A stretch of 64,000 nt of DNA, taken from assembly GCA_016872555.1 (NCBI GenBank), contig VGZO01000017.1, positions 1 to 64,000 of the forward strand. The letters run 5' to 3'. How positions within the stretch are numbered: the stretch's first letter is position 1; each line of letters opens with the position of its first letter. The stretch comes from Planctomycetota bacterium (GTDB lineage Bacteria; Planctomycetota; Planctomycetia; Pirellulales; UBA1268). The translations under genes and the position numbers were made by a program. This document shows positions 3,989 through 13,548 of the stretch, piece after piece. The notes below the pieces were generated by a model. It was not told the DNA's origin. It made no database searches and worked only from the letters and a program-made list of their open reading frames with translations.

Positions 3989-6900
3989 TCAATTCGTGAC
4001 TGGCCACAGGTAGGCGATGCCGACGGGTTCGATCCGATAGCTCGCGACGCGATAAAAATCGACGATCCGCGCCGGCTCGCGGGCGATGTCGTCGTCCACG
4101 CGGTCGAGGAAGCGCTGCCAGGCCCGGCGGTCGAGGTCGCGCTGCCGCTTTTCGTCGTCGTTGAAATCGCCGCCGAACGTTTTTTGCGGGTCGTCGGCGG
4201 TGGCGAGCTCCTTCTGGATGCGGGCTTTTTGATCCACGAGCACGGTGCGGAGCGCTTCGCTTTCGGCAGCCGCCCGCTTGTCGAGGAGGGCCACGGCGTC
4301 GGCGCGGTGCTCCTCGCCGCGGGTCTGGAGATGCACGAGCAGCTCCTCGATGTCGCGGGGCATCGCCGCGAGGAGCTTGGTGCGGATCGCGTCGGCGACA
4401 CGCATGCCCGCGGCGGGCTTCATCACGTCTTCGAGGAGCGTGAGCGTGTGCTGCTCGGCGGACCGTTTGTAGGGCGTGAGCGTGCCCTTGCGGTTTGCCG
4501 GGTCGGTCCACTGGGCGGTGACCGTGAGGATCTCCTGATGGAGCCGGACGGCGCCCGAGCCATAGAGCGAGAGTCGGCCGAGGAGGATCACGCGGGGGAT
4601 CGCGTCGGCCGACTGGCCGAGGAGGGCGCGGGAGAGGTCGTCGTGGACGAATCCCTGGGCGAGAAACCGGCCGAGGAGCCGCTTTACGAGCCGGTGCTCG
4701 AGGTGGAGCTGCACGACCGAGTCGTCGATGCCGGCCGGGGCGGTGAACACGACGGGGCGGATCGGTTTTTCCTTGCGCCAGCGGAAGTCGCGGGGGCCGG
4801 AGTCGGGGGGCTCGCGGAGCGTGTCGAGCGTGTCGCTCCAGGTGGAATCGCGGCCGAGGCGGGTGTCGAGGTCGGGGAGGGTGAACCGCGCGGGCGCGGC
4901 GGGGTCGGCGGCCGGGAGCGGGACGAGCGGAGAGGCGCGATTCATCTCGAGCGCACAGGAAAGGGCGTCGCGGAGATGCTCTTCGTCGAGGCCGATCGCG
5001 CGGCGGGCGTCGTTGATCCGGTTGCGGAGCGAGTCGATCTGGTCGTCGATCTTCGTGAGCCGGGCGCGCGTGGCCTCGAGCTCCTCGTCGACGGCGGCCT
5101 TTGCGGCGGCGTCGAGGTCGATGGCGCCAAGATCGGCCGCCTGGGCGGCGGCAGTGGCGCGGTCGATGCCTGATTTCAGGATCGTGTCGATCTTCGATTC
5201 GAGCACCTGCGACAGGCTGCCGAGCTCGCGGGCGATGCGGTCGGTCTTCTCGACGAGCACTTCGAGCACGCGGTCTTCGGGCCGCTGGGTGTGGACGAAG
5301 TAGTGGCAGAAGACTTCGGGCGACGGCTGGAGCTTGCGGTCGATGCGGCCGTTGCGCTGTTCGAGGCGACCGGGATTCCAGGGAAGATCGAAATGAAAGA
5401 GGTTGTGGCACCAGGCCTGGAGATTGAGACCCTCGCGGGCGGCATCGGTGGCGATCAAGATGCGGAGCGGCTCCTTCGCCGGATCGGCGTTGAACGCCTT
5501 TTTGATTTCTTCTCTGCCGAAGGCGGGGGTCGAGCCGCGGAAGACGGCGATCCGGCGGTCGGCCAAGTCGGTGCCCTCGATCGCAGCCGAGAGCATCTGC
5601 CAGAGATAGCGGGCGGTGTCTTCCCATTCGGTGAAGATGAGGACGCGGATGGGGGACCAGGCGGTCGACGCGCCGGAGGCCGAGCCACCGGGGAGGCGGA
5701 TGGCGGGGCAGCAGTGTTTCTGGAGCCAGGTCACGAGGGCTCGAAGGCGGGCGTCGGGGCGATGGCGCGCGTCGTCGGCGATCGCGGCCATCCGGTCGAG
5801 GAGGTCGCGCTCGCGGGTGGCGAGCGACGCCGGGCCGGTGGGCGTGGCGGCGGTGAGCGAGGCGATGGCGTCGTCTTCGATCGTCGCCAGTTCGGCCGGG
5901 TCGAGGTCGGCGCGGTCGTCGTCGGACGACGGAGCCGTGACCGCGGCGTCGGCCGTGGCTGAGGCGATCGTGAGGCGGTGTTGCTGGTCCGGGGCCGGCG
6001 CCGCTTCAGCCGCCCAGACCTTCTCCATCGAGCGGCGGTGGACGAGGAGCGTCCTATAAAAAGCTTCGGTGCTGGAGAGGAGCCGCGTCTGGAGGCCGAC
6101 GACCACGAGCATCGCCTCGGCCGCCTGCCGGCGCGTGGCCCTCGCGGAGAGGCGGGTCTTGCGGAGGTCGCGGTATTCGGCGAGGAGCCGGGGGAGCTCG
6201 AGCTCGGGGGCGTCGGGGGGAAGGCTATCGATGTCGAGCCGCTTCACGACGCGCTCGGGAAACCCGCCCACACGGGTGCGGATGTCTTCCTTGAGCCTTC
6301 GGACCATCACCGGATCGAGATCCTTGACGCGGACCTTCACACCACGGGTGAACCGCTGCGGGTCGAGGATCTCGAGGAGGGCGGAAAAGCTGTTGGAGTG
6401 GCCGTTGTGGGGAGTGGCCGAGAGGAACAGCCGGTGCTCGAAGCGCGGGGCGAGGTCGCGGACCGCGCGCGTGATCCGGCTGTCGATGGCATAGCGATTG
6501 TCGCTCGACGGGGCGGCATGGTGGGCCTCGTCGAAGATCAGGAGCGAACCGGGGCGGAGCGTGCCGAGCCAGTCGCGCAAGGGGCCGGCGTAGGTCTCGT
6601 CGATCAGCAGCTTCGACGACACGAGCCAGCGGGGGTGGACGCTCCAGGGGTTCACCGCCCAGCCGCGCTCCTGGCGGATCCGCTCCATCGCGAGCCGGTC
6701 GAGGACGTTGAACACGAGGCCGAAGCGGGCCTCGAGCTCACCCTGCCACTGCGGCACCATCGATGGGGGGCAGACGACGACGACGTCTTTGACGCGGCGC
6801 CGCAGGAGCAGCTCGCTGGTGATCAGCCCCGCCTCGATCGTCTTGCCGAGGCCGACGTCGTCGGCGATGAACAGATTCACCCGCGGGAGCAGCAGGGCTT

Positions 6901-7285
6901 TTCGCAGGGGCTCGAGCTGGTAGGCGTCGAGGCGGATGCCAGCGCGGAAGGGGGATTGGAAGAGCCGCGGGTCGGTGGCCGTGACGCAGTGCCAGCGGAG
7001 CGTGCGGACGAAGGCGCTGAAGTGGCGGGGGTCATCGAAACCCTTGCAGCCGATGCTCTTCCAGGCCTCCCGGTCCACGATGCAGGTGTCGAGCTCGAGC
7101 TCCCAGATGACTTCGAGCTCCTCCCCCTGGGCGTCGTCCTCGAGGCAGGAGAGCGCGACCTTCGTGCCGTGGGGCGAGGCGTCGACCTCGTCGACGAGCC
7201 AGGCCCGGGTGCGGCATTTCACGACCTGGCCGGGGCAGGGGAGCGTGCCAGGGGAGCGGGTCGGCAGGCTGGTCGAAGCGGTCAC
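3989..7285 (-). CDS. drmD: DISARM SNF2-like helicase DrmD
   Basis: A 1098-residue superfamily 2 DEAD/DEAH-box ATPase of the SNF2/HepA type. The N-terminal domain contains 'EDDAQGEELEVIWELE' (about 49-64), a stretch I recognise from DrmD. Motif I is 'DDVGLGKT' (142-149) and motif II 'DEAH' (252-255); motif III is 'SATPHNG'. The C-terminal helicase half includes 'VLIFTEWEDTARYLW' and 'LPWNPGRLEQRNGRIDR'. The last ~350 residues are helical and specific to the family. DrmD is the class 1-specific helicase of DISARM anti-phage systems and is normally next to the DrmMI methylase; here the methylase lies downstream on the same strand but beyond an inserted opposite-strand cassette. Translation starts at GTG 7285-7283. 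drmA, drmB and drmC are not in the window. Confidence 0.8.
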   Translation of the reverse strand: MTASTSLPTRSPGTLPCPGQVVKCRTRAWLVDEVDASPHGTKVALSCLEDDAQGEELEVIWELELDTCIVDREAWKSIGCKGFDDPRHFSAFVRTLRWHCVTATDPRLFQSPFRAGIRLDAYQLEPLRKALLLPRVNLFIADDVGLGKTIEAGLITSELLLRRRVKDVVVVCPPSMVPQWQGELEARFGLVFNVLDRLAMERIRQERGWAVNPWSVHPRWLVSSKLLIDETYAGPLRDWLGTLRPGSLLIFDEAHHAAPSSDNRYAIDSRITRAVRDLAPRFEHRLFLSATPHNGHSNSFSALLEILDPQRFTRGVKVRVKDLDPVMVRRLKEDIRTRVGGFPERVVKRLDIDSLPPDAPELELPRLLAEYRDLRKTRLSARATRRQAAEAMLVVVGLQTRLLSSTEAFYRTLLVHRRSMEKVWAAEAAPAPDQQHRLTIASATADAAVTAPSSDDDRADLDPAELATIEDDAIASLTAATPTGPASLATRERDLLDRMAAIADDARHRPDARLRALVTWLQKHCCPAIRLPGGSASGASTAWSPIRVLIFTEWEDTARYLWQMLSAAIEGTDLADRRIAVFRGSTPAFGREEIKKAFNADPAKEPLRILIATDAAREGLNLQAWCHNLFHFDLPWNPGRLEQRNGRIDRKLQPSPEVFCHYFVHTQRPEDRVLEVLVEKTDRIARELGSLSQVLESKIDTILKSGIDRATAAAQAADLGAIDLDAAAKAAVDEELEATRARLTKIDDQIDSLRNRINDARRAIGLDEEHLRDALSCALEMNRASPLVPLPAADPAAPARFTLPDLDTRLGRDSTWSDTLDTLREPPDSGPRDFRWRKEKPIRPVVFTAPAGIDDSVVQLHLEHRLVKRLLGRFLAQGFVHDDLSRALLGQSADAIPRVILLGRLSLYGSGAVRLHQEILTVTAQWTDPANRKGTLTPYKRSAEQHTLTLLEDVMKPAAGMRVADAIRTKLLAAMPRDIEELLVHLQTRGEEHRADAVALLDKRAAAESEALRTVLVDQKARIQKELATADDPQKTFGGDFNDDEKRQRDLDRRAWQRFLDRVDDDIAREPARIVDFYRVASYRIEPVGIAYLWPVTN

Positions 7286-11340: not shown

Positions 11341-13434
11341 TCAGGGCTGCCGGGCGGCCGACGATCCCGCGCCGGAGGCGCCGAGCCGCTCGGGATCGAC
11401 CCCGGTGGCCCAGGCGGCGGCCAGCGCGAGCAGGTGCTCGGCACCGGTGCCGGCATTCGGGACCGACCGGATCGTGCCGCAGGTGATCACGTCCACCCGT
11501 TCGCCGCTGAGGATCACCTGGCGGCCGGCACCGGAACGCGCGCCACCGACGACCACGACACGCGCGGCGCCGAGCGCCTCCCCGATCGCGCCCAGGGCCG
11601 GATGGTCGGCCGGCACGACGGCCATGCCGCGGGAGCCGAGGGCGTGGAGCAGGGCGGCGCGCTGCGGCGCCGACACGGCCCCGGCGGGAAACACCGCGAC
11701 GTCGAGCCGGCTCGTGCCCAGGCCGTCGCGCTCGGCGGCCGCGGCATGGCTGACGGCCACGCCGGCGTCGAGATCGGGATGGGCCTTGAGGGCCTCGAAC
11801 GCGGCTCCGTCGCCGGCACCGACTTTCCAATCGGGATGGCCCGCCCGCGCCACGTGGCCGCCGGCGGCGATGGCGCAGCGGAGCCCCGCGCCATCGAGCA
11901 GGGTCGCGGCCGCGCGGGCCACCGCCACGGCCCCCGGCGCCTCGGCGACGGCCACGAGCAGCATCGTGCCGTCGGCGCCGGCGGGAAACAGCGTGGCGAC
12001 GATCGCCTCGCCGACGGGGCGCGGCCGGCCATGGAGCGGGGCGACGTGCATGAAGATCCCCGGACCGGCGTTGACCTCGATCACCATCCCGCGCTGCGCC
12101 TCGAGCGGCCGGCCGATGTCTTCGGCGACGACGTCGAGCCCGGCGACGTCGAGGCCGACCGTCTTCGCGGCGAGCACGGCCCGCGCCGCGACCTCCGGGC
12201 AGACCTCGTCGGTCTCGTCGGTGATCAGGTCGCCGTTGACCTTGATCGTCACGCGCCGACCGGCCTCGGGGACGCTGTCGGGGGCGAGGCCGGAGCGCTC
12301 GAGGAGCGCCAGGGCCACCTCGTCGATCCGCATCACGCCGAGGAGATCGGTGTAGTTCTCGCCGCGGAGCGGATCGCGGTTGGCCTCGTCGACCAGCGCC
12401 GCGATCGTGCGCCGGCCGTCGCCGACGACCACGTCGTGCTGGCCGCGCGACGCGGCGACCACCGCCCCGCCGACGACCAGCAGCCGGTGGGCGACACCGG
12501 GAGCGAACTGCTCGATGATCACGCCGGCCGATTGGTCGTGGTTTTCGCGGACCGCCAGCGCGAAGGCGTCGCGCACCTGCCCGGCGCGCACGAGGCCGAA
12601 CGAGATCCCGCGGCCGTGGTTGGCGTCGCGCGGCTTGACGACGACCGGATAGCCGAGCTCGTCGGCGGCGCGGCAGGCATCCTCGGGGGTGTCGGCGACG
12701 CGCCCCAGCGGCACCGGCACGCCGACCTGCCGGAGGAGGAGCTTGGTCAGCTCCTTGTCTTGGGCGATCGACTCGGCGATCGTGCCTGTGGCGTCGGTCT
12801 CGGCCGTCCAGATCCGCCGCTGCCGGCTCCCCTCGCCGAGGCGCACGAGGCTCGCGGTGGTGACCCGGTGGGTGGGGATCGCGCGGGCCTCGGCGGCGCG
12901 GACGATGGCGCGCGTGCTCGGCCCGAGGCGGTGGGTGTCGGCGACGTCGACCGCGTCGCGGACCGCCGCGGCGACGTCGTAGGCCCGGCCGTCGGCGGCA
13001 GCGACGAGACAGCCGCGCGCCGCTTCGAGGCAGGCCAGTGCCAACCGCGGCTCCTCGAACGTGGCCGCGATCACGAATCCGGCCGGGTCGGGCTCGGCAC
13101 GACTCGCCGGGAGGAGCTCCGTCCAGGTCGCCGTCGGCGCGGTCCCGGCGGCGGCGAGAAACGTGCCCCACAGCCAGCGCAGCACGGCGGCGGCGTCACC
13201 GGCGCCGAGCAGCTCGTCGAACGCCGGGCCGGGGACCGGCGGCGATCCCTCGAACGCCATTTCGTGGGGGCGCGATTCGAGCGCGCCGCGCCAGGCCGAC
13301 AGCCTGCCGCGCGCGGCCGTGTCGGCGGCGAGCGACCAGCGCGAGAGCGCCCCCGGATCGACCTCGACTTCGAGCACCGGGAGGGAATGCCAGCGGCTCG
13401 CGCCGTCGTACCGAGTCGTCCGCCGCCATTCCAT
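11341..13434 (-). CDS. Cyanophycin synthetase-like ATP-grasp protein with a degenerate Mur-ligase domain (CphA2-like)
   Basis: A 697-residue protein with cyanophycin synthetase architecture. It has an N-terminal domain (to about 200), an ATP-grasp domain ('AQDKELTKLLL' near 225, 'GYPVVVKPRDANHGRGIS' near 262, 'VIEVNAGPGIFMH' near 452), then a C-terminal Mur-ligase-like region of about 200 residues. Where CphA1 has the ATP-binding 'GTNGKTTT', this protein reads 'AEAPGAVAV', so the second ATP site is lost. Known CphA2 enzymes likewise have a damaged Mur domain, are shorter than CphA1 and polymerise beta-aspartyl-arginine dipeptides; the same is inferred here. No cyanophycinase or CphA1 is in the window. 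The ATG at 13434 is preferred; a GTG at 13446 is the alternative. It is immediately upstream of sbcD. Confidence 0.8.
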   Translation of the reverse strand: MEWRRTTRYDGASRWHSLPVLEVEVDPGALSRWSLAADTAARGRLSAWRGALESRPHEMAFEGSPPVPGPAFDELLGAGDAAAVLRWLWGTFLAAAGTAPTATWTELLPASRAEPDPAGFVIAATFEEPRLALACLEAARGCLVAAADGRAYDVAAAVRDAVDVADTHRLGPSTRAIVRAAEARAIPTHRVTTASLVRLGEGSRQRRIWTAETDATGTIAESIAQDKELTKLLLRQVGVPVPLGRVADTPEDACRAADELGYPVVVKPRDANHGRGISFGLVRAGQVRDAFALAVRENHDQSAGVIIEQFAPGVAHRLLVVGGAVVAASRGQHDVVVGDGRRTIAALVDEANRDPLRGENYTDLLGVMRIDEVALALLERSGLAPDSVPEAGRRVTIKVNGDLITDETDEVCPEVAARAVLAAKTVGLDVAGLDVVAEDIGRPLEAQRGMVIEVNAGPGIFMHVAPLHGRPRPVGEAIVATLFPAGADGTMLLVAVAEAPGAVAVARAAATLLDGAGLRCAIAAGGHVARAGHPDWKVGAGDGAAFEALKAHPDLDAGVAVSHAAAAERDGLGTSRLDVAVFPAGAVSAPQRAALLHALGSRGMAVVPADHPALGAIGEALGAARVVVVGGARSGAGRQVILSGERVDVITCGTIRSVPNAGTGAEHLLALAAAWATGVDPERLGASGAGSSAARQP

Positions 13435-13548
13435 GAGCCGTGCCACCCCCGAGGTTCGGTCGCGAAGCCGTGTGTAGGAAAGGATCGTAGCAACAGCGGC
13501 TGGCGCGGCGGCAAGAGCGGTTCGCCGGCGCGGCGGCCCGCGGGCGAC

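Follow-up and report, generated by a model that had tools for sequence, protein, structure and literature searches.

A Putative Reduced CphA' of a Planctomycete Keeps the ATP-Grasp Residues of Cyanophycin Synthetase and Lacks Its Aspartate Site

RESULTS

A probable CphA' subunit in a planctomycete

The gene at positions 11341 to 13434 of the window (by which we mean the whole 64,000-nucleotide stretch of planctomycete DNA analyzed here) is in our judgment probably the solitary, reduced CphA' of a two-gene system, an ATP-grasp ligase that would act with CphA to join an acceptor other than aspartate to a cyanophycin-like chain. In our model, CphA' would use ATP to phosphorylate a cyanophycin-type chain at its C-terminal carboxylate and would couple the activated chain to an amine other than an Asp bound as in CphA1. 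The SET-fused full-length CphA of the same genome, with which CphA' may cooperate physically, would add Asp, carry out the side-chain step of the Mur ligase, and provide the N-domain hydrolase. Since CphA of the window lineage would have kept the N-domain hydrolase too, CphA' would be left with one task. The product or a derivative of it would perhaps be exported via an ABC exporter/DUF1854 pathway.

Tandem cphA genes outside cyanobacteria have been read as cyanophycin synthetases. The loss of the Asp site throughout CphA', together with an exporter instead of cyanophycinase, suggests that cyanophycin-type chemistry has a second branch, so far overlooked, which occurs in at least three phyla and whose product is directly testable. 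The idea of export is the most interesting part of the result. A more far-reaching version of our model, which we put forward tentatively and consider the less probable of the two, would make CphA' and CphA a two-subunit synthetase for an exported poly-amino acid other than cyanophycin, with CphA' adding a second, non-Asp unit. The pathway would then include the ABC exporter and DUF1854, as well as SET in this planctomycete family, and the window gene would encode one of the most reduced subunits.

Domain architecture and predicted structure

The gene and its domains are arranged as follows.

11341 to 13434, minus strand: gene for a CphA'-type ATP-grasp ligase of 697 amino acids, ATG at 13434, stop ending at 11341
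12952 to 13434, minus strand: N domain with its fold but without the hydrolase motif Cx19HxxEH (alignment and model)
11977 to 12951, minus strand: G domain (ATP-grasp), the most conserved part (alignment, identity)
11344 to 11976, minus strand: Mur-ligase core domain that keeps its fold and has no lid (model; VIA-align against the MurE core)
11923 to 11946, minus strand: Mur P-loop remnant, AEAPGAVA for the GTNGKTTT of active enzymes (alignment)

The start is backed by an orthologue (L011, 72% identity) with the same MEWRRTT beginning. An alternative GTG start at 13446 gives a protein of 701 amino acids, P0001, whose numbering is used for residues throughout. The best-matching models of the window protein were those of cyanophycin synthetase (PRK14016 of NCBIfam, 477 bits, E 1e-142; TIGR02068, 370 bits), in agreement with the family named in an earlier, sequence-only reading of this DNA, and both scores were below the cut-offs for full enzymes. 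P0001 had no relative in the viral contigs searched and matched no defense family in PADLOC. Among the 60 best plasmid records listed (full CphA, GshAB, Ngg, and others), none covered 80% of it.

The sequence-only reading had described an intact ATP-grasp half, a Mur-ligase half with a lost P-loop, and a shortened C-terminal domain, and we came to the same description. The catalytic ATP-grasp residues were kept in the G domain alignment. At the position of the Mur P-loop GTNGKTTT, the window protein reads AEAPGAVAV, and no Walker A motif was found elsewhere in the whole protein. No Mur_ligase_C (lid) domain follows at the end of the protein, and an AlphaFold2 model (67-row alignment, mean pLDDT of 93.1, pTM of 0.90) contained a complete Mur core and no lid. 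By VIA-align, the C-terminal domain of the model matched the MurE core with a Z of about 20 over ~200 residues. As modeled, the C-terminal domain thus has the fold of a Mur core but neither an ATP site nor a lid. Over its whole length, the model matched CphA1 (7lgn) with a Z of 33.6 over 656 residues; CphA2 (7ta5) ranked after CphA1, with a Z of 27.5 over 575 residues. The alignment also lacked the N-domain metallopeptidase motif Cx19HxxEH, as defined in PMC9262961, a loss absent from the earlier reading. With two of three active sites apparently dead, the ATP-grasp site of the G domain is predicted to be the sole intact one.

ATP-side residues are kept and the aspartate site is lost

Residue roles (contacts to ATP, Mg, acyl-phosphate, the chain end, and Asp) were taken from TeCphA1 (PMC9427784). 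The corresponding features of the window gene are as follows.

12754 to 12756, minus strand: K231 (TeCphA1 K220), ATP phosphate contact, kept (alignment; PMC9427784)
12634 to 12636, minus strand: K271 (TeCphA1 K261), ATP phosphate contact, kept (alignment; PMC9427784)
12607 to 12621, minus strand: NHGRG loop with H277 (TeCphA1 H267), acyl-phosphate stabilization, kept (alignment; PMC9427784)
12484 to 12486, minus strand: R321 (TeCphA1 R309), binds the C-terminal carboxylate of the growing chain, kept (PMC9427784)
12442 to 12444, minus strand: G335 in place of R323, the binder of the incoming Asp beta-carboxylate (G in 97/97 CphA')
12217 to 12243, minus strand: shortened acceptor loop; in the Asp-binding loop 389-399, S396 and the following residues are deleted (PMC9427784)
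12133 to 12135, minus strand: D438 (TeCphA1 D431), Mg ligand, kept (alignment; PMC9427784)
12076 to 12078, minus strand: E457 (TeCphA1 E450), Mg ligand, kept (alignment; PMC9427784)
12052 to 12054, minus strand: F465 in place of R458, the binder of the incoming Asp alpha-carboxylate (alignment; PMC9427784)

All three groups that hold Asp are changed in P0001: R323 to G335, the N394/S396 loop by deletion or replacement, and R458 to F465. The earlier reading did not include this loss. We scanned 84,980 species genomes, took the best 80 loci, and classified the enzymes by residues, which gave three kinds: canonical CphA1, the CphA' type, and the partner CphA type. Locus and sequence counts are raw and include related genomes. 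Each of the 97 CphA' sequences had G at 323, a deleted 396-400 loop, and no R458, while K220, K261, R309, D431, and E450 were kept and H267 was kept in 99%. Neither the change at 323 nor that in the loop occurred in any of 89 partner and 24 canonical sequences. The CphA' of Ralstonia eutropha H16 reportedly lacks most of a loop found in active synthetases, which may be the one deleted here. Because R309 is kept, a chain end of the cyanophycin type probably still serves as the donor. The loss of the carboxylate-binding arginines suggests that the acceptor is either an amine lacking the carboxylates of Asp or some larger unit.

The best trees place CphA' apart from CphA2

In G-domain trees, CphA' formed one group within the clade of the two-gene system, and neither CphA2 nor canonical CphA1 fell in it. 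It was one side of a branch with SH-aLRT values of 98, 95, and 97 in trees that included or omitted the diagnostic columns, and the best trees placed the window protein in this clade and not with CphA2. On the tree, the label for loss of the Mur half takes a minimum of seven changes, a sign of repeated loss. The Mur-ligase half was apparently lost on several occasions, both within CphA' and in CphA2; thus, such loss alone does not identify a CphA2. Both the N motif and the Mur P-loop are lost in the solitary CphA' of the window-type relatives in Planctomycetota (S1 and S3) and of a second group (S2). Judged by sequence, the window gene appears to be a strongly reduced variant of CphA', separate from both canonical CphA1 and cyanobacterial CphA2.

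The tandem CphA' proteins of Ralstonia/Cupriavidus and Bordetella belong to the same clade, have lost the Asp loop, R323, and R458, and keep H267. Unlike them, the window protein is solitary and has neither the N-domain motif nor the Mur P-loop, which the Cupriavidus, Ralstonia, and Bordetella proteins keep. CphA1 (SuCphA1 and TeCphA1) shares the fold over ~660 residues and the G-domain residues for ATP and the chain end, but the window protein is without its Asp site, Mur catalysis, and N-domain hydrolase. The ATP-grasp module of GshF (3ln6 and 3ln7) has the same ligase fold and a non-Arg residue at 458; however, it has no Mur-like domain, and Tyr/Phe is the P-loop residue in place of His267. 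As a side observation, genome G059 encodes three distant ATP-grasp relatives of cyanophycin synthetases of ~600 amino acids (L047:1537-3399, L049:7752-9530, and L050:7980-9830), and the alignment of the L050 protein with CphA2 7ta5 (157 bits) extends into the C-terminal domain.

The sequence-only reading had drawn a parallel to cyanobacterial CphA2 and had raised, as alternatives, the recycling of dipeptides and a different peptide polymer. The domain losses are indeed alike, since CphA2 (7ta5 from Gloeothece, 8fxh from Stanieria) also lacks the Mur P-loop and lid (PMC9427784) and the N motif (PMC9262961). In addition, R458 is replaced by an aromatic residue in CphA2 (F or Y) and in the window protein, with F in both 7ta5 and P0001. 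It is conceivable, though we think it unlikely, that the window protein is a functional analogue of CphA2 that polymerizes beta-Asp-Arg and whose Mur and N-domain activities were lost separately from those in cyanobacteria; a bulkier substrate could fit its altered acceptor pocket. An AU test of the window group joined with CphA2 gave p values of 0.096 for all columns and 0.3 with the diagnostic columns masked, with two CphA2 rows only. As this test does not reject the joining, the shared deletion and the R323 change carry part of the clade argument. Membership in CphA2 was not supported: CphA2 keeps R323 and the N394/S396 (ANxS) loop, has K at 267, and takes another position in the best trees, whereas P0001 keeps H267, has G for R323, and has the loop deleted, so that only R458 to F is shared. 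The order of the structural matches, CphA1 before CphA2, also argues against a CphA2 analogue. Furthermore, searches of the 98%-complete window genome for cyanophycinase (TIGR02069), Peptidase_S51 (PF03575), Asparaginase_2 (IaaA), and IadA found none of them, and just 3 of the 72 genomes of the window's family had cyanophycinase. Thus, the genome has no known source of beta-Asp-Arg, and dipeptide recycling is unlikely.

CphA' occurs with a partner CphA

The preferred reading, a CphA' that would work with CphA, draws on 56 loci with tandem pairs in Betaproteobacteria, Myxococcota, and some Planctomycetota, in which cphA' lies upstream and the partner cphA downstream. The N motif was present in CphA' at 54 of these loci and in no partner (0/56). 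The Mur P-loop was present in 55/56 partners and in well under half of the CphA' proteins. This implies that the domains of tandem pairs are complementary. The partner type has a full Asp site, a replaced E215, and mostly Q for H267. The change of H267 to Q was rejected as a universal mark of partners, as those of the Pirellula type keep H.

The window genome, a 98%-complete MAG, has a full-length CphA of the partner type with an intact P-loop on another contig (G000:C5:118029-121172 or 118029-121175, the latter equal to L009:10030-13176), so the enzyme does not stand alone as the sequence-only reading had supposed. This CphA carries a C-terminal SET domain (PF00856, E 1.4e-11). The same fusion was seen in many full CphA proteins of the window's family (E 3.8e-11 in L056). 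The SET domain has a protein-lysine methyltransferase fold, and in CphA it could possibly modify Lys in the polymer.

The two genes are not adjacent in the window genome, lying on different contigs, and the S1, S2, and S3 forms are all solitary. As not every member of the clade is tandem, this weakens the claim of a pair, not that of CphA' descent. A full or nearly full partner CphA was also held by 23 of 25 genomes with a window-type or Pirellula-type short CphA', the exceptions being one 63%-complete MAG and G483. In the family scan, a window-type or similar short paralogue was found in a minority of genomes and full CphA in most; with many genomes carrying the partner without any CphA', CphA' is not always needed. 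We also observed three planctomycete genomes (G485, G486, and G484; loci L075, L076, and L072) with up to three solitary CphA'-like paralogues and one partner CphA.

The complementary domains of tandem pairs, the two dead active sites, and the cross-protomer contact made by the G domain of CphA1 (PMC9427784) would also suit a catalytically silent subunit that assembles with CphA into mixed oligomers and either tunes CphA activity or anchors the chain. We regard this as improbable because the catalytic residues of the ATP-grasp site hardly vary across 97 sequences and a silent subunit would not need them.

An exporter and DUF1854 adjoin the partner gene

Next to the SET-fused cphA of the window genome are the following genes.

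L009:6905-9265, divergent: ABC exporter
L009:6396-6911: DUF1854 gene (PF08909, E 5.7e-37)

Both genes were present at 9/9 loci of the window's family with enough flanking DNA, the window's own genome included. Directly upstream of cphA', 45 of the 56 tandem loci have a divergent gene for an ABC exporter, with DUF1854 next in most; L115, L134, L099, and L083 are examples with both genes. The exporter adjoined the partner cphA in 57 loci in total and was divergent in all. Class-wide, 8 of 9 genomes with this kind of CphA had DUF1854, among those listed in both searches. The linkage was missing in several planctomycete loci with tandem or solitary partners (e.g., L080, L088, and L207-L222), and the exporter was not near cphA' in the window genome or in other solitary forms. 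As a control, we used 12 canonical planctomycete cphA1 loci, mostly with ~6-kb flanks. Cyanophycinase adjoined 11 of these, and none (0/12) had the exporter or DUF1854; conversely, no cyanophycinase was found in the flanks of the tandem loci. As judged from gene neighborhood, the ABC exporter and DUF1854 hint at transport of the product, or of a derivative, out of the cytoplasm, although an adjoining exporter does not prove polymer export. In the literature library searched, we found nothing on DUF1854 or on cyanophycin export.

These loci also bear on whether the pair is simply a split cyanophycin synthetase that makes ordinary cyanophycin, with the Asp acceptor held in CphA' by other residues. 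In favor of this, the chain-end Arg309 is kept and the partner has a complete Asp site, but the reported contacts to the incoming Asp are lost in CphA' and cyanophycinase is not near the tandem genes. Moreover, expression of the cphA-like genes of R. eutropha H16 gave no cyanophycin, according to the citation of Adames 2013 in PMC8560796. This result fits a different product and could have other causes. We believe that ordinary cyanophycin is a very improbable product of the pair.

Selection on the window gene and its local neighbors

The window frame is a real gene under purifying selection, based on GC by codon position (0.80/0.56/0.92) and dN/dS. Compared to the genus-level orthologue, dN/dS was 0.34 overall, 0.23 for the G domain, 0.26 for the N domain, and 0.49 for the Mur domain. 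Constraint is strongest in the G domain, which is 88% identical to this orthologue. A decaying paralogue without function could be proposed from the faster change of the Mur domain, but with an open frame under purifying selection, a G domain this conserved within the genus, and orthologues in many planctomycete genomes, it is hardly credible.

The linkage to sbcDC noted in the sequence-only reading holds within the genus, and among the loci checked it was seen solely there (L059 and L060), which says little about function. DUF1501/DUF1553 precede the gene in L059 and L053. These and sbcDC are abundant planctomycete genes, and we draw no functional inference from them.

In the Pirellula-type loci (e.g., L081:4847-6907 and L092:5181-6656), a gene for a low-complexity, proline-rich protein is found upstream of the short CphA' in 9/9, and in L092 there is a 4-base overlap. 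This proline-rich protein had no database match. At the contig edge, the minus strand of the window carries genes for a methyltransferase resembling DrmMI (691 bits) and a helicase resembling DrmD (1033 bits) at 2-2329 and 3989-7285, which by PADLOC apparently are a cut-off class 1 DISARM defense system.
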